From the NCBI GenBank assembly GCA_026874595.1, contig CM049319.1, forward strand, positions 59,840,917 through 59,904,916: a stretch of DNA of 64,000 nt, read 5' to 3'. The DNA is from Sipunculus nudus (Eukaryota; Annelida; Sipuncula; Golfingiida; Sipunculidae). The notes under the pieces are model-generated. The model was not told where the DNA came from and made no database searches. It saw only the letters and a list, made by a program, of their open reading frames with translations. Below, one piece after another: positions 1,443 to 59,841 of this stretch; the first letter of the stretch is position 1, and each line of letters begins with the position of its first letter. Both the position numbers and the translations under genes were made by a program.

Positions 1443-4400
1443 TTATAATTATTGTTACCTTCCTCTGTCTCTCCAGCTCTCTGCTCCGCCGTCGTTCGTC
1501 TGCTCTCCGGCTTCTCTCGTGGTCTTCTTCAAACCATCGCCGTAGCACCTCCATTTTTCTATCCCGCTCCTGAAGACAAACACGTACAACAAAAAAATAA
1601 AGTAGACAGTAATCGAAGAGTGCATGCTTCCGCCTCAGGCATGAGGTATATTATTTATTGACAAAATTAATGAATGACCTCATAAGTGTAACCGTAGAAA
1701 TGCTACGTAATTGTATTAATACGACTAATACCCACCAGATGCCAGCACCGACACGTGGAGCCATATTGGAGTCATATTGAGGAAAGAAAAATGTATTTGT
1801 AAATTGTATTTCAAATGGTAATAATAAAACTTATTATCCTGAAGGCTAGATCCATATTGGAGTGATTGTGTCTATAGCACAATTTTTGTTTATTTAAACA
1901 TAACCAGCAATGCCAAGTCACTGGACCCATACGGCAGACGACCGCATCTCGCAGTGCGCATGCTCGTTACACAACCTACTTTACTCGATATCCCGAGGTA
2001 GCAGTCATTATGAATTGAAGGTATAAAACCCTATTAACAGTACTTACTTCCATTTGTCGCTGCCTGAAGTTAGCCAGACGTATCTCCCGCTTGCTTCTGA
2101 TCGTCATACCTTTATCGCATAATTTAGCTAGCTGCTCCTCGCGCAGGCGCCGTCGTCGCTCCTCCTCCTCCTGCATAAGCTCCAAAAATCTGCCAACAGA
2201 TGGCGTATGTGATGTCAGATATCTAGTTTTGCATCAGACAAAACTTTAATTTATTTCCTTCTATTTATTTATTTTTTTTACTTATCTAATTATTTTGTCT
2301 TCAGAGGAAAACATCATTATAAAAATGCTGGCAATAAAAAAATTTGAGCTGCAAGAAAAAAGCTGTCATTTAGTTTGCTAAAATTTGTTAGGTGTAAAAG
2401 GCTGGTGTTATATTTTAACCATTAGGACGAAATATGGTTGGTTAAACAACTTGAGGAATCATAATAACATGAAAATGTATATTTTAACGGAAACATATGA
2501 GGACCTGACTAAGCCACCACAAATATTGTAGAGAAGGCGCTCACTTCGTTCTGTCATCTTCCCGCTGTTTCTCCAGCCTTTTTCTGACCTCTTTGACCTT
2601 TTCTTCGCGGATACGTGTCATGTGACTACCGTAAGGACTCTCTTTTGAAGGTCTTCTTTGTTTGGGACCAGATCGCTTATTCTCCTGCAAATGCAATGAA
2701 ATCAGTGCAACTCTATGTTTATTATTATTTTTTTGTAATTTAAAAGTAACTGGTAAAAATTATTATAGTTGATTAGAATTATACTAAGAGAGGCGAAATA
2801 TATTGATTACCGAGCCCATTCGTTTATCCGTTTTGTTTTAGAAATTTTTGGATATTTGAAAACAGAGCACAATAAATGAAAAAGTGTAATTAGTAAAAGT
2901 TAGTTCCTGAAGTCAAGAATTATTATTTAATAATAACTTGTAAAGTCCCTGACAATTTTTATTGTAAAATGCCTGAAATCGCTACTTAAGGATACCTGTT
3001 CACATTAATGAGTCTTGTAGAATTAATGAAGGGTCCCCTTAGTTCGAAACTGAAAAGAAATAGTTTTAGGAACAAAAAAATATGAAAACAGATAAGAATT
3101 ACGTTTCAGTTTAGATAAATGTATATTTTGTATTTAAAATACAAATAAACAGTCCCTACGCTGCCCTTACCTCCAGTTGCGTCAATTTCTCCTAAAGGGG
3201 GGGGGGGGGGGGCGGTGTGAATCGCGCAGGCGTGGGAGGGTAATTAAAGTTGGGAATTTTTTTTTTTGAACAGACACACACACAAACACATACACAAACC
3301 AGGTTTGGATATGTAATATTTCATAGTAAACTCAGAAATGGAACCAAAGTCTATTATTCTAATTATTAATATATTTTCCTCTAATATAAAAATATAAAGT
3401 TGGGCGATATATAACCCCCCCCCCCCCCTTTCCCTAGTAAAGACGCCCCTGCTAACCTTTTTTTCTGTGTCCTGACGCTGGTATATTTTCCTCAGGTACT
3501 GTCTGTACTCGTTGAACTCTTTGAGAGTACACAACACCTTCCCGTCCTTGCTGATGAATCCGGCTTGCAGCAGTCGTTTGCGCATGCCCGGCGCATTGAG
3601 ATGTAGCTTTAGATGAGGGTCGTGCAAAGGTTTGTAGTTATTGGACATGAGCAAGGAATACGGGTCCGTCAGGTCAAAGCCAAGGTCACGGGAACTCATG
3701 CGTATCTTAAAAAGATGATAAAAAATAAAGATGTGCATATTGACTGATCTTCTGTACGGTTTCAACGTGATCTTGTATATATTGGATTTATTTGTATGTG
3801 GAAATGTAGATCGTATCTGAATGAGAACTCTTCCACATCTCTAGCGTCACCTTCTGGCGACGAGTGACACTGTTCTGGTGCGTTATATTGACTAGAGAGA
3901 TCATATTTTACTGTATCTCAATTGAAAGTAAAACCTTATCTTACACAGCGAGATTCCTGCGCAATACAGACTATCAAGTGCGATGCGTCTGTTACTATGA
4001 CAAAAACTATCAGATTAATTTTCATGGTTTTTATAAAAATGAATTCATATATACAAGATCATATTACTGAACCCACAGTTTATCTGAATAAAAATGTGGG
4101 CTACTTAATGTTGACCCTAAAACGTGAGCCTTGTATAATGAAAATATATCAGTAATTAAAAAAAATAAACCGGAATTGCCTTTATATATACATGTATTAC
4201 AAAAAATAACGATAGGCGCCTCTTGGTGGAACAGGCTAAATAAATATTAAACGTCAATATAAATATATAAAACAACATTAAAATGGGTAAACGGCTATAT
4301 ATTAAGCTTCTATACTAAACTTTACCTATATGAATTATACAGGCCTACAATTATCATTTTATAATTTAAAAAATAAAATGCGACCGGTACAAATTGGTTA

Positions 4401-17253: not shown

Positions 17254-17868
17254 TTATTCATAATAGACTCCGTGAACAACACAAACTACGAACAAGGAGT
17301 CATTCTGAAACGTTTCACAGGCAAACCTGTCTGTGGCCGTGTTCCATAAACACCTTGTGGCCACGGCTAGGCCTGGTGTCCCGGACCCGTCTTTTTGTCC
17401 TATCATCACTTGTGACACGAGCTTATGACGTTTATAACCCATTTTCTTGATATTATCTTTCACAGTTTCTGATATTCTTCGCACTAAAATGCCAGTTCTA
17501 TGAGGGTTATATACTTCGTTTAACAAACACACCCTCAAAGTGTCACTTATCACCCTAGCAACGGCCTCAGTTTTGAACTCCGCGTCTTTACTCGGTCCAA
17601 GTTGGTATGTATTCTCTACTTTGATTTTAGGTTGTTTTTGAGCGTTTTCGTCCAGTTGAATACTTGCGGCCCTTGAAGATCTCCGTCGGAAACTGTTAAA
17701 TGCCACAATAGCCGAAGCTACGCCGAAAAAGGAACTTTTACGTCGACCTGCACGATTCGGTTGCTGCTGCACTGAAAGCTGCGCGCGCATCGGAGAAGCG
17801 CTAGGTGTAGGAGTCTTGATTTCAACTGATTTTCTCTTTTGTGTCTTAAGATCTGTTGTCGTCGACAT
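17254..17868 (-). CDS. Tctex1-domain protein (dynein light chain Tctex-type 4/5-like)
   Basis: A single coding exon of 204 residues with an ATG at 17868 and a TAA at 17256-17254. Residues 1-80 are a basic, Ser/Arg-rich linker (RRKSS, RRRSSR). Residues 85-204 form a Tctex1 fold with the family signature ENTYQLGP (85-92), then an alpha-helical stretch with LLNEVYNP (115-122), HKLVSQVMIGQ (148-158), RCLW (172-175), NDSLF (189-193) and a C-terminal VHGVYYE. This layout matches TCTEX1D1/TCTEX1D4 (now DYNLT5/DYNLT4) rather than the short DYNLT1/3. Family members act in axonemal or cytoplasmic dynein and intraflagellar transport complexes. A pyrimidine-rich TTACTGTTTTAG 24 nt upstream of the ATG may be a 5'-UTR acceptor. 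AATAAA overlaps the stop codon. The subfamily is uncertain. Confidence 0.85.
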   Translation of the reverse strand: MSTTTDLKTQKRKSVEIKTPTPSASPMRAQLSVQQQPNRAGRRKSSFFGVASAIVAFNSFRRRSSRAASIQLDENAQKQPKIKVENTYQLGPSKDAEFKTEAVARVISDTLRVCLLNEVYNPHRTGILVRRISETVKDNIKKMGYKRHKLVSQVMIGQKDGSGTPGLAVATRCLWNTATDRFACETFQNDSLFVVCVVHGVYYE

Positions 17869-17895
17869 TCTGTTTGTACACTTATGGCACCATCT

Positions 17896-18060
17896 AAAAC
17901 AGTAATTTAAAATTATATAATATAATATATCATAACATAATATAACGTAACAAAACATAAAATAATATACTGTAATATAATATACTGTTATATAATATAA
18001 AATAAAATAAAATAAAATAATGTAATACAATATAATATAACATGATGTGAAATCATTTAA
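17896..18060. repeat. Pentanucleotide-like AT-rich tract (ATAAT/ATAAA)
   Basis: An imperfect series of ATAAT and AAAAT units just upstream of the Tctex1 gene. It ends near a pure (AAAAT)n-like run at about 17998-18021. A longer open frame through it is repeat translation and not an N-terminal extension. Confidence 0.75.
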
Positions 18061-18539
18061 TATCATATATTACAATGTTAAAAATGTGAGGCAACATCAT
18101 ATAATTTTATATACATGTACAAAGTTGAACTAAGTTTTAATGAAGATTTAACTCTAATTTAGCTTGAAGAAAACTGTTTTTATCAACTTTCACTGTTGAG
18201 GGACATTTTTATTCCGAATAACATTGATAAAATTAGAAATTATACGACATAGAATGATACGATTTTTTTCTGCATATCAAGATGGCACAGAGACATGTAT
18301 AGTACAGTTATCAGTCTAACTCTTGTGACCAGTTATATAGACCTAAAAGTGTCAGAAATAACGATCATCTCCTTTTTTTATTTACATATACATTTCCAGG
18401 ATGTTTCAATATTCAGAGTAGTTATTTAATTGGTCCAGACCAAGGAATACATTAAATGTGAACATTTATACTACATATTCATGAATATAAAATACATAAT
18501 TTTATATATGAAACGCTCAGGTTAAACATATATACATTT

Positions 18540-43746: not shown

Positions 43747-45087
43747 ATGAATTGTATGATGGTAAGTTTGAAATCAATATGATTGTATTTCCATTGCTTG
43801 TACATCTGATAGGTAATTTTGCAAAGTTTTCAATATTGAACAATAAAATTTAAACTACATAACGTTTAATATCTCTTGGCTCTTTAGATTTATAGGATAT
43901 CAATAAAATACAATTAAGAGTAAATATTTTAAACATATTTAAATTGTAATTGGTGGTTCGATATTGAAGAAATTTATTAATAATACAAATCATCTTTTAT
44001 TTTCATTATGTCTTTATTATATCCACCTTTATTGTTTCAATATTTAAAAATATTGACAAGATTTATATTAATCCCATTTGCACCATCTTCCGCAAAAATA
44101 TAAATAATATTATATATATTATTAAGTCTCTTAAAGCTCTGTGGACATATATCTGTTCAGGTGAAATCATGTGCATGGAAGAAATCGCACAGTGTCCAAT
44201 ACATGGTTAAGTTTCGCTGAGAGAAACTTATTACAAAGTGGAATTTTTTTTAAAAATCCAGAAAGATAAATTGATGTATTACATAATGTATCACGTGGTC
44301 TCTGCTTGTCTTTACCGGAGACATGAAACCACTCGAAGCCGGTTAATAAGTTAAAAACATGAAGCTCTGTGCCAAATGGTTATATACTTTTATGTTTCAA
44401 TGTGTCAATGTCAGGAAGAAATTAAACACAATTTAACGGACATTAATTTAAGTAAATAATTGCATATTTTACAGAAAAATGTAAATGTATTTTTATTTAT
44501 ATCACTTTCGTGTATTTCTTCAGAAACTTTGCCTCTTCTTTGCCTCCATGGCGGGAATGATGAACGGAAGTATCGGTGCTGCCATCTGCACTGATCCTGA
44601 CGGACCTGTTCTACATCAACAGTGGATCAACACTCATTTTGCAAGCCACGAAGAGCAACATCCATCAAACTACATCCATCCAGCTCTCCGAAGCGCAAAA
44701 GACAGCATGATCGATCAAAGCACAAGAAAATACGCCACCCATACTCCGTTCACGGCTGATTCTGACAAAGAAAAACGGTGCCCAAACCAGCCAAGCCAAG
44801 GAATGAATGACGAATTAGCGCTCAGGTCCACGTGCCCTTGGTATTACGTCACTAACCACGATGAAAACCGTTACCCTAGAGACATGATGGAAGTCGAATG
44901 TGCCTGCAGCGACGCATGCTCGGGAATCACCACAACTTCCGGTCTTGCGCACTGCGAGAAAGCTTACTATAATGTTCCTGTTTTACGGAGAGATACGTGC
45001 AACGAAACAAGCGGCCGTTATACATGGGTGCAAGGCTGGCAACGACTCGCCACTGCATGTGTGTGTGCAATGCGCCAGACCGCGTGA
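43747..45087 (+). CDS. IL17: IL-17-like secreted cytokine, tandem copy 1
   Basis: Two coding exons: 43747-43761 (ATG AAT TGT ATG ATG) and 44524-45087, joined in phase 0 by a GTAAGT donor and a TTTCTTCAG acceptor. The product is 192 residues. Joining completes a signal peptide (MNCMM plus KLCLFFASMAGMM, cleavage near A24-A25). The mature part has ten Cys (27, 91, 109, 131, 133, 137, 149, 164, 184, 186). The IL-17 cystine-knot hallmark is present: STCPWYYVTNHDENRYP (107-123), MMEVECACSDAC (126-137), VPVLRR (156-161) and a C-terminal WQRLATACVC. It would act as an extracellular dimeric ligand of IL-17 receptors, a family expanded in molluscs. Without the micro-exon, exon 2 would start without a proper leader. 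The closest relative is the gene at 53445-56035. Confidence 0.88.
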
Positions 45088-46920
45088 AGATAATACCCAT
45101 AATACTCTAGGTCATTTGCATAATGTTTCTTCCCAGGTTTGGACTATGATCTCATGCTGCTATTAAATCTGCCGTCCGTGCGTGCGTGTGTGTATAGGAA
45201 AGTCCGTATTTTGCTACTTCTGAAGATGAGTGACTTTGCTCACTTCATATAATTGGTTTTACAGGGTATGTTGATCACAATGAGGCGTTTATTTACACTA
45301 TTCATACATGCCAACCTGCCTGAGTTGCAATATAGCCGAAGTACAGAGCGCAAATAGTAAGGTTGCTATCAAACAGTAGTACTTAAACACCGTATTGCCA
45401 AAGATATACACACAGGATTCTAAAGTACTAGTCATGTGTTACTATTTGATCTTTCCCATGCATACATCTGATGGTACATTTTGCTATGCATTATATATAT
45501 TCGGGTAGGCTAGACCATTATGTTTAACTCTAAGGAACTCCAGAAACTAAAATATGGATTTTTTTAGTTTTGTATTTTACCGGGGTACTCAAAATAAGTT
45601 AAATATTACCAACATTTAATAAGGATACAGAATATGGCCAATTTGTTTTAATTGTGAATATAATTTTTTTTATCCATTTATTTTGATAACTGAATGGAAT
45701 AATATTTTACTTTTAATACACTTTATGAATTATTAAAGAGATTAAGGCTTTGGTTGCCATTAGCAACACCACTCCCTTGGACTTCGTATTCATTTAGGGG
45801 GGGGGGGGGATTATCTATGGGGAAACGCAGAATTATAATTTTTTTTTCTATTGCTGTATGTATTTAATCAAGCAGTAGAAGTCCCGGATTATTACGCCTT
45901 TGCTGATATGCACAGTTAAGTTATTTAGAGGAAATATTTATGAATTATTTATTTATTTATTTTTTAATACACTGCATATATTTATCGAGGTACAAGAAAA
46001 TTAAGAGGTCTTCTTTTCCTATTAGTTAAATAATGTTAATCTGTACATGCAATAAGTCAGCTTAAAAACTATATTTCATATCACATTTGTTGCATAATTT
46101 ATTTTATACCAGTACATGATCATTGTATTTTATTCAGAATATTGAGCTAACATATCAAATAAATTTTTTATTTTTCTCTACAACTGACTTTTATTATATT
46201 TTACCTTTATAACCTTTGGGGTTATTAAGTGATTTATTACAGAACGAAGATTTTTAAGTGTTGTCTGTATGTATGTTTGTATATGTATGTTAGTGGTGTG
46301 GCGATTAATCGATTAAATCGATGATTTTATCGTTTTCTTCCAAAATCAAATAAATTGATTGCATTTTTGCATAATGTATGCACATTCAAAGAATCTAATC
46401 CTGTCAGAAATATACGAACACACAGTAGCGAAGAACAGCATCTGCATGACAGGTAAATTTCTTGGAATAAGCACCCAATGACACCCGCTGACATCCCCCC
46501 CCCCCCCCTCCACACACACACACAAACACACAATCCTGGATCCGCGCCTGTTGCGCAGCCAACAGTCGTCCAACCGAAGTCAACCTTGGATGCGGGTGGA
46601 TTGATGGTTTCTTTATGAAAACTGATGTTCATGTCACACTATTAATAAGGTCAATAGTTCAGGTACTAGATTGATAGATTTCAAGGTTATATAGAAAGTA
46701 CATAAAACAATCGATAAATAACGATCATCGGTCGTTTTTATTGTTCCATCAGCGATTATGATTTTAAAACCAATTCCTACCACTACTGCTGTATAACCTA
46801 TTACCCCATACCTACAGCAATTTTTCAATGGACAATATTTACTAAGGTAGGTCTTTACAACATCCCACAGCTTATGCAATATGACTCATATTCCAAATTT
46901 TACAAATTGCTAGGTAAAAA
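45088..46920. other. 3' flank of IL-17-like gene 1 and intergenic DNA
   Basis: The 3' UTR end could not be fixed; ATTAAA near 45163 is the nearest poly(A)-like signal. A right-end hAT-like terminus CCTGGATCCGCGCCTG sits at about 46537-46552 next to a C run and (CA)n, with no matching left end found. Confidence 0.45.
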
Positions 46921-53444: not shown

Positions 53445-56035
53445 ATGATCTCCCAATTGGTGAGTTTAAGATGTATTCAAAGATATCTTGTAAACCATGG
53501 TTCTGATAAGAGATTTTCTTCAAACAGCAATCACAAATATGATATACACTTATATTTATCAAGGATAGGATAATGACTTATCATGAGAATGTATGCAATG
53601 AGAGTGCGCCTTGTGGGTTTCATGCTTTAACTGAATATTCCAAAAGTCATAACCTTTAGTTAGTGTGTAAGAGTTAACCTATGGGTCAAAACGAAATTCA
53701 ACTGTTTTGAATTTAAGTATCTGGTTTGGTCTGACCGGAAACATTTACCACTCGGCTATAGCCAGTCCATCGTGAAGAACCTTGGAGGATTCCTCTCAGA
53801 ACCTTTGATGAGGTTCTACATGGAACCTTTCAGTTTCCAGAAAAGAACCCTCGGGAGAATCCAAAAAGAACCACGTCTTAAAGGTTCCAGCTGGAACCTT
53901 AAAAGGTTCCCCCACTCGGTCAATTCTGATGAACCCTTTTTGGGTTCTCACTATAACCCTTTTTCCTTGGAGTCTGCGTGCTATCCCTGCACATTTTACA
54001 CTGTTAAACATGATCATAATAATCAAAAGACCGGAACAATCTAAAATATAACATTAGAATGAGTTAAACGACGCTGAAGAGGCCAAGTCGTGACAAAATG
54101 GACATTTTACGACATCTGTTACAAGACGAAAAAACAAACGGATCGTAATTTCTTCTAGGTAGTCATATATGAGAGCTTTTTCCTTACATGAAGTTCATAA
54201 ATTAATAAACATAAACAGAGAGATCACAACCATGAGATCAATATAATATAATTACTTTTATCACGACTGCTGCATGAAATCGTAAAAATGATCATTTTGA
54301 CTTGGAAAAATGGAAATATTATTTTATTTTATTTATTTACTAAAAAAATAATATCGCCTAGTTATTTCTATCCAACTAAAGGTGTCCCTCTAGCTGAATG
54401 GGGAGGGGAACTTTATTTGTATATTTTGCTACACCTCTTAATATGATGATAAAAATGTGAGATACAGGACAATGCATTATGTTGATATGTGAATGTGAGA
54501 ACTGACTTCCAAGATGGTAGAGAGAATGAAGGATATAGCTGAGCAGTCAAGGAGTTAAAGTACATAAATATTTGTCTATTATGTGTATCATCTCACGCTG
54601 TTGGTTCAATTTGGCAGAATACAAACGTTTGCAGTAAAATTATCCGAGCATACGTTATTATTTCCTTCAGTACACTTGTTTAATACGTTGTTCTGGTTCT
54701 GAGTGTGAGTAAACACAGTCCGCGTGTGTCTGTTTATCATAAGACCTTTTATACATAGCGCCCAAACAAAGAGAGGACTCAAAAAAGCAGATAAAGCTTG
54801 GAAACTCCTGATTCATCAGCTGGCGTGCGCACTATAGTTATGTTTTAAGCCACTGATTGATCCCCGGTGTCAGCGTATCTCCACTTTTTTACAGGGGCGA
54901 ACAAACGGTTTTAAAACGAAACAATGGCAGATGTCATGATAATATACTTCGTGTATGTTCAACATAAATATATATAAACAAGTCTATTTAACGACCGGCT
55001 GTAGGGTGCCTCGATTATTCCAAGACCCTGTGCATTTAAAACTAGAAATCCAGAAATCTTATTTTTTTTAAAAAAATTGATACTTTTTAGGTTATTTTTA
55101 TCTGTATTCAGCAGACAATAAGACCAACAAGACATAAACTTGGTTGACGGGCCCACTAGATATACTAGTGTTTATGTACACAAAGGAAGAAAAGCAAATG
55201 AAAATACAAGTGTGGTACAGGTGAAAGCATAGTACTGATTAATAATGTTTACCATGTGGTCATTTATAATTTGCAAAGTTGTTCATTGACGGTGTTACTG
55301 ATAACACTTTTATAAATTACAACCCTCTGCATATATATGAAGTTAAAATTTATAACCCGGGAAGTTGTATATTACAATATCTTTTCAACCATTATCTCAT
55401 TACAAATCATTCTGTTTCAGCCACTTCTTGAATGCGGACATTCATTGCTTCTCTCTCTTTTTTTTATTCAGATTTCCATCTGCGTCTCTCTGGCGGCCAT
55501 GTTGACCGGAAGTACCGGTGCTGCTATCTGCACTAACCCTCATCCGAGTGTTCTTCATCAACAGTGGATCAACATCCATTTCGGAAGTCCCGATGTGCAG
55601 CACGAATCTCACTTTATCCAACCTTTGTACCGCAACTTGAAGCGAGACATGCTCAGTCTGAGTTCACGACAATACGCCAGTCACGTGCCTTTTACGTCAA
55701 ATTCTGATAAAGAAAAACGATGCCCTCTGGAGCCCAGTCATGGAATGAACGACGAACTAGCGCTCAGGTCCACGTGCCCTTGGTATTACGTCACTAATCA
55801 CGATCAGAACCGTTACCCTAGAGACATGATGGAGGTGGAATGCGCGTGCAGAGACGCATGCTCAGGAGTAACCACGACTTCCGGTCTTGCGCACTGTGAG
55901 AAGTCGTTCTATAACGTGCCTGTGCTGCGCAGAAGCACGTGTAACGAAACAACAGGTCAATACACGTGGGAGGAAGGCTGGCAGCGCCTGGCCAATGCCT
56001 GCGTGTGTGCCAGGCGGCCTGAAGCAAACGCCTAA
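53445..56035 (+). CDS. IL17: IL-17-like secreted cytokine, tandem copy 2
   Basis: Two coding exons: 53445-53459 (ATG ATC TCC CAA TTG) and 55472-56035, joined in phase 0 by a GTGAGT donor and a TTTTTTATTCAG acceptor across a 2.0-kb intron. The product is 192 residues. The junction gives a clean leader (MISQL then ISICVSLAAMLTGSTGAA). The mature domain keeps all ten Cys of copy 1 and the motifs STCPWYYVTNHDQNRYP, MMEVECACRDAC, VPVLRR and WQRLANACVC. The N-terminal part (about residues 25-85) has diverged from copy 1 more than the knot has. The C-terminus ends ARRPEANA. Its role is expected to be an extracellular IL-17 receptor ligand. An upstream in-frame ATG at 55337 would lie in the intron and is not the start. 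Confidence 0.88.
53772..53960. mobile_element. Probable MITE with repeated GAACC/GGTTC words, in the IL-17-like gene 2 intron
   Basis: GAACC or its reverse complement occurs about ten times in 190 bp, in both orientations, e.g. AAGGTTCCAGCTGGAACCTT (a perfect palindrome near 53880-53899) and GAACCCTTTTTGGGTTC. Such self-complementary clusters are typical of small foldback transposons. Ends are approximate. Confidence 0.5.
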
Positions 56036-59464: not shown

Positions 59465-59841
59465 CAGTGGCGTCAATTTTTCTTCCAGGATGGGGGGATG
59501 ACTTTGTATATACATATACACACACACATATATATATATATACCCTTTTAAGCGTGTCTGAGTGACATATTCAACTATATATTTTTATTATATATACGTA
59601 ATATTTTAAATAATTATAATGTTTTAGAAAATAAGTTATTTTGTGAATTTTAAGCAAGGTTTAGATATAACATTATTGAGTAAATAGATCCAACGTCTTT
59701 AATTCTATTTCTGAATATATTTTATTTGCAATATTATAATATTATTCTCTGAAAAGTGGGGGAGATGATTACATTGACCATCCCCCCTTGCCAAAAAGTG
59801 GGGGTATATATACCCCCATCTCCCCTATATGGACGCCCCTG
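59465..59841. mobile_element. hAT-type MITE with perfect 8-bp target duplication
   Basis: CATGCGAG is present on both sides (59457-59464 and 59842-59849). The element begins CAGTGGCGTCAATTTTT and ends GGACGCCCCTG, whose reverse complement starts CAGGGGCGTCC. The 377-bp interior holds a short (CA/TA)n and two GGGGG/CCCCC stretches and has no coding capacity. The 8-bp duplication and the CAG..CTG ends fit the hAT superfamily. It must be mobilised in trans. Confidence 0.9.

Follow-up and report, generated by a model that had tools for sequence, protein, structure and literature searches.

The locus described here raises the question of how a gene is spliced once a transposable element has been inserted on one of its splice donors and has duplicated it. 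It lies in a 64,000-nucleotide stretch of the genome of Sipunculus nudus, which we refer to as the window and which was analysed over its whole length. We argue below that a miniature inverted-repeat transposable element (MITE) left donor-like sites on both of its sides, and that the terminal repeat of the element may have supplied an acceptor and most of a short coding exon.

The gene and its exons

Reading of the sequence places the gene on the minus strand of the window. Its coding exon at 3457..3699 starts with an ATG at 3699, holds 81 codons and ends in phase 0, with an acceptor directly upstream at 3705. The next exon, at 2545..2684 of the same strand, is entered in phase 0 after TTTGCAG, an acceptor that scores 8.3. 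Translation of the predicted transcript shows that the frame is kept open through the exons starting at 2684, 2189 and 1569, both with and without the 21-nt exon discussed below.

The sequence-only reading of this DNA had called the gene FSIP2-like, a name that database searches did not confirm; FSIP2 is in human a 6907-residue sperm protein according to a review of the fibrous sheath (PMC11276731), a fact with no bearing on the identity of the present gene. The N-terminal protein had no match in Pfam, NCBIfam or PDB, and a separate, leftward frame of 1186 codons gave only sub-threshold hits in Pfam and NCBIfam. Further left on the same strand are this frame and another of 1129 codons, which would suit a giant exon but are taken here as separate from the gene. 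Most of both frames, which share sequence, is held in the copies of a tandem duplication of ∼9 kb (L042-L044, at about window -14200 to -32400) that are 97.6-98.8% identical, reflecting either a recent duplication or an effect of the assembly. When genome contigs of prokaryotes were searched by pattern for related genes, 110 stretches came up, none of which was confirmed.

The element and the duplicated donor

The element occupies 3174..3451 and is a full-length, 278-bp copy with internal deletions relative to its family. It ends in CAGTTGCGTC on the left and CAGGGGCGTC on the right, and the terminal inverted repeats that it has in common with other copies read CAGTTGCGTCAATTT and CAGGGGCGTC here, compared with CAGTGGCGTCAATTTATCTTCAAGGG and CAGGGGCGTCAATA in the family. 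The longest stop-to-stop frame wholly within the 278 bp is 49 aa. A second family copy at 59465..59841, with ends of the same two kinds, is flanked by a perfect 8-bp duplication, CATGCGAG. End-to-end global alignment of the two copies gave a score of 33, which was reached by none of 300 dinucleotide shuffles (maximum -47) and by none of 938 random segments of the window, the better strand being taken (maximum -39). The reverse complement of the second copy scored -7, also above the shuffles, as is to be expected from inverted ends. When the interior alone was compared, the score was 70, and the best of 500 shuffles reached 54. The 20-bp left end alone has three mismatches to that of the second copy (best in 30 shuffled windows, five), while the 20-bp right end alone has five, no better than the shuffled windows (four to seven).

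Many further copies are found in the genome. A search of the species' own genome (1.43 Gb, 153 contigs) gave 3287 candidates at first look, not to be counted as confirmed copies, of which 40 were scored; among the matches listed, 42 rows comprised the element itself, 40 interior matches at 80-94% identity and one match, at 76%, to the left part. The 26-bp left end typical of the family is present in exact form at 186 places in the 1.43-Gb genome, and its control at none. MITEs of the hAT superfamily have 8-bp target-site duplications, ends of the form CAG...GCGTC, a short length and a high copy number, and the present element is alike in all four respects; it is unlike them in that its two ends diverge past the first ∼14 bases and carry runs of G. 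The 8-bp duplication and the CAG...CTG ends presumably place the family in the hAT superfamily. Other sequences in the window, at 46550, 46922, 47124 and 56939, start with CAGnnGCGGATCCAG, several of them adjoining G- or C-runs of 13-14, and probably represent additional elements of hAT-like type that belong to a different family.

The insertion is flanked by CTTACCTC at 3166..3173 and CTAACCTT at 3452..3459 (plus strand), which agree in six of eight bases and form an imperfect target-site duplication. On the minus strand, the exon that ends at 3457 closes with AAG and is followed by GTTAG and then by CAGGGGCGTC of the element from 3451, so that the bases duplicated at the donor are the last three of the exon and the first five of the intron. 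The right copy carries the proximal, upstream donor AAG/GTTAGC, whose +6 base (C) is the first base of the element. The left copy carries the distal, downstream donor GAG/GTAAGG, with its GT at 3170-3169.

For the 15 copies in which both ends were placed, the flanking 8-mers agreed in 5.8 of 8 bases on average (2, 2, 5, 5, 5, 6, 6, 6, 6, 6, 7, 7, 8, 8 and 8 in the individual copies), compared with 2.19 for 210 cross-pairings, of which only 0.48% reached an agreement of at least six. The ends had been sought in 40 loci and in the second copy of the window: 14 loci, the present one included, passed at both ends, and the second copy was added by hand. The loci examined were seven copies from the genome search and 32 further stretches. 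When 30 of the 186 loci with an exact left end were inspected, eight had a right end with at most four mismatches and a duplication of at least 7/8, a figure in which the duplication itself had helped to pick the right end. A donor-like target was also seen at one other copy (TTTACCTT, with four mismatches in the left end), where no clear gene was apparent by eye.

The sequence-only reading of this DNA had proposed a MITE at 3174-3451 lying on the donor of the exon that ends at 3457. Its letters and coordinates are right, and the family copies and the duplication statistics agree with it. On these comparisons, both the assignment of 3174-3451 to a high-copy hAT-like MITE family, beyond chance likeness, and the insertion of this MITE on a splice donor, with donor-like sites left on both sides, are solid. 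A chance resemblance to a transposon is ruled out by the alignment to the second copy, the copies in the genome and the statistics of the duplication. That the locus holds no transposon at all, but an ordinary intron and an old conserved microexon that resembles a terminal repeat by accident, is scarcely credible: the splice sites and the phase would suit an ordinary microexon, yet such a reading leaves the end-to-end homology to a high-copy element family, and the duplications of that family, without an explanation.

Splice sites in the terminal repeat and a candidate microexon

Splice sites were scored with general splice-site frequencies that were not fitted to this species. As the same reading had noted, the proximal donor GTTAGC (3451..3456, minus strand) takes its +6 base from the transposon, and the distal GTAAGG (3165..3170, minus strand) looks the stronger of the two; the scores are 7.3 for the proximal site, in the top 1.7% of the 6956 GTs of the window, versus 10.5 for the distal one, in the top 0.07%. 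Between the two donors, on the minus strand, the left terminal repeat contains a polypyrimidine tract of 16 C and an acceptor TTTAG (3192..3212). This acceptor, C16-TTTAG/G at 3192/3191, scores 10.4, in the top 0.7% of the 6592 AGs of the window, compared with 8.3 for the acceptor at 2684. A branch-point-like TTCAC has its A at 3218, 26 nt upstream of the acceptor. Together with the distal donor, the acceptor delimits a predicted microexon of 21 nt at 3171..3191 of the minus strand, GAGAAATTGACGCAACTG followed by GAG, of which 18 nt come from the end of the transposon and the remaining 3 nt belong to the target copy. Its codons (GAG AAA TTG ACG CAA CTG GAG) are in phase 0 and free of stops, and would encode EKLTQLE.

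How could such an arrangement have arisen? A non-autonomous hAT-like element inserted at the exon/intron border and duplicated 8 bp that contain the donor. We propose that splicing departs from 3456, in the upstream copy of the donor, and uses the acceptor that the left terminal repeat of the element carries at 3192/3191. The 21-nt exon would then be joined to the former next exon, which starts at 2684, through the other copy of the donor, downstream at 3170. The net gain from one insertion would be a new intron of 265 nt and an in-frame microexon of seven residues. With these splice sites present and the frame open, we infer that the microexon is spliced in, either constantly or as an alternative form, a reading that we prefer and to which we give an even chance. 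Since both the inclusion and the skipping of the microexon are in frame, the gene could tolerate the insertion.

The chief alternative is that the microexon is skipped, the donor at 3456 being joined directly to 2684, in which case the element would merely lengthen the intron and change the +6 base of the donor, and the protein would be the same. The proximal donor is usable, with its score of 7.3 in the top 1.7% of the 6956 GTs, and the frame is open without the microexon. The runs of G14 and C16 of the element pair in the RNA fold, and an end-to-end hairpin of this kind could hide the acceptor at 3192/3191 in the terminal repeat; the stability of the predicted hairpin is no greater than that of shuffles (z -0.19; 39 of 100 shuffles fold as well). 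Exons of 21 nt are easily skipped, as microexons are hard to recognise, and a pyrimidine tract made of C only works less well in practice than one rich in U. Skipping would, on the other hand, leave both the strong, in-frame pair of acceptor and donor and the unique combination of sequence changes described below as coincidences, and we regard it as quite plausible while leaning somewhat against it.

The sequence-only reading had further suggested that use of the distal site would add some 285 nt, stops among them, and truncate the protein. The read-through frame does close at the stop at 3246-3244, and a transcript spliced from the distal site alone would keep 286 nt and encode a protein of 151 aa; it is as an outcome that truncation appears unlikely. 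We set it aside as the main outcome because the acceptor at 3192/3191, which that reading had overlooked, and the distal donor frame an in-frame, stop-free exon of 21 nt. In its simplest form, this alternative has the distal donor used alone, with the element retained in the mRNA. The greater strength of the distal site (10.5 vs 7.3) and the stop within the retained 286 nt speak for it, but the proximal donor is intact and comes first in order, the acceptor in the terminal repeat would split the retained stretch, and the downstream exons are open and in phase with the exon preceding the element. We consider this outcome improbable. A little less probable still is a poison exon, perhaps regulatory, formed from a second acceptor within the element at 3381/3380. 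This acceptor scores 9.2 and, with the distal donor, would give an exon of 210 nt that meets a stop after four residues (RKIY), but nothing favours it over the stronger acceptor at 3191.

If the preferred microexon is to be more than an accident of where the element landed, the acceptor of this copy should be compared with those of its relatives. A family-typical left end put at the same place reads GAAG/ATAAATTGACGCCACTG, with an acceptor of 4.6 and a 20-nt exon with an in-frame TGA. In a first set of 16 other copies whose left end could be recognised, the best acceptor scored 6.8; the best site was in frame and stop-free in two copies (scores 3.2 and -4.0), and one copy lacked a usable AG. 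The second set was picked by an inner motif and comprised 15 other copies, two of which were dropped as their left ends had six mismatches (their best sites scored 2.7 in frame and 4.8 out of frame). Among the 13 kept, the best acceptor scored 7.5 and was out of frame, one copy was in frame at -0.4, and two were without an acceptor. Thus none of the 29 other copies scored has an acceptor that is both strong and in frame, and none exceeds 7.5.

The 20-mer GCGTCAATTTCTCCTAAAGG was sought genome-wide and found at 51 places with at most two mismatches: one exact place, which is this locus, none with one mismatch and 50 with two; the reversed-pattern control gave one place. Each single change recurs among the 50 near matches, two of which carry CCTAAAGG, with the same TTTAG/G core and no known splicing role. 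By its letters, then, the combination of changes at this copy is unique in the genome, whereas the single changes are not private to it. That the acceptor is an inherited trait of a subfamily is not supported, as no other place in the genome carries the exact 20-mer or differs from it by a single mismatch, even though the single changes recur. This recurrence elsewhere lowers the odds both for the use of the microexon and for its tuning by selection.

Neutral decay of the family end was simulated at 10-25% divergence, and an equally strong and in-frame site appeared in 0.00003 to 0.0042 of the trials, or in 0.0006 to 0.013 of them when the bar was lowered to 8.32, the score of the acceptor of the next exon. 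The estimate is post hoc and built on the general scoring scheme described above, and we take it as support rather than proof. It hints that this locus has changed in a way that promoted clean splicing. The changes in acceptor and frame, absent as a combination from other copies, may have been favoured after the insertion. The fuller proposal, that one MITE landing on an existing donor created a new intron and a coding microexon at a stroke and that selection later tuned the acceptor and the frame, is one that we advance tentatively and with less than even confidence.

Relation to introners and neighbouring features

The proposed events resemble those described for introners. In Gozashti et al. 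2022 (PMC9860276), the 5' splice site comes from the target-site duplication and the 3' splice site is carried by the element; in one case described there, 12 bp of codons were added, 4 bp from the element and 8 bp from the duplication. The present element shares with the introners of that account the terminal repeats, the target duplication, a donor from the duplication and an acceptor within the element, here at the level of sequence. Splice sites that derive from the duplication and/or the element, by which introners are recognised, are found here as donors in both copies of the duplication and an acceptor in the left end. Unlike in the cases of that account, an existing donor was hit here, so that its second copy would close a separate microexon made of 18 nt of the element and 3 nt of the duplication. 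The [D1,2] spliceosomal twin introns of PMC12403724 are alike in that the gain of an intron bears on the donor of one already present; there, however, the inner intron splits the donor, whereas the present donor has been doubled and an exon would separate the two introns.

Introners are known as makers of introns, and an element that strikes an existing donor is less described; among openly licensed papers, searched mainly at the level of listings and abstracts, we met no description of a transposon that sits on an existing donor and turns its own end into a microexon. Should the microexon be in use, the locus would be a worked example of one insertion that contributes an intron together with a coding exon in frame, and would point to a route by which introner-like insertions could add exons besides introns. 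The 186 sister copies with an exact left end would then offer a reference set against which changes that improve splicing can be measured.

Other features were observed in and around the window. Two interleukin-17-like frames on the plus strand, at window 44488-45084 and 55319-56032, match the Pfam family IL17 (E 2.6e-12 and 9.5e-11, respectively) and lie ∼10 kb apart, and a frame with a Tctex-1 domain is found on the minus strand at window 17257-18069 (E 4.5e-23). To the left of the window, L046-L047 (at about window -58600 to -61100) is a tandem array that spans ∼2.5 kb and repeats about every 32 bases, and whose copies are ∼92% alike at the shifted register.
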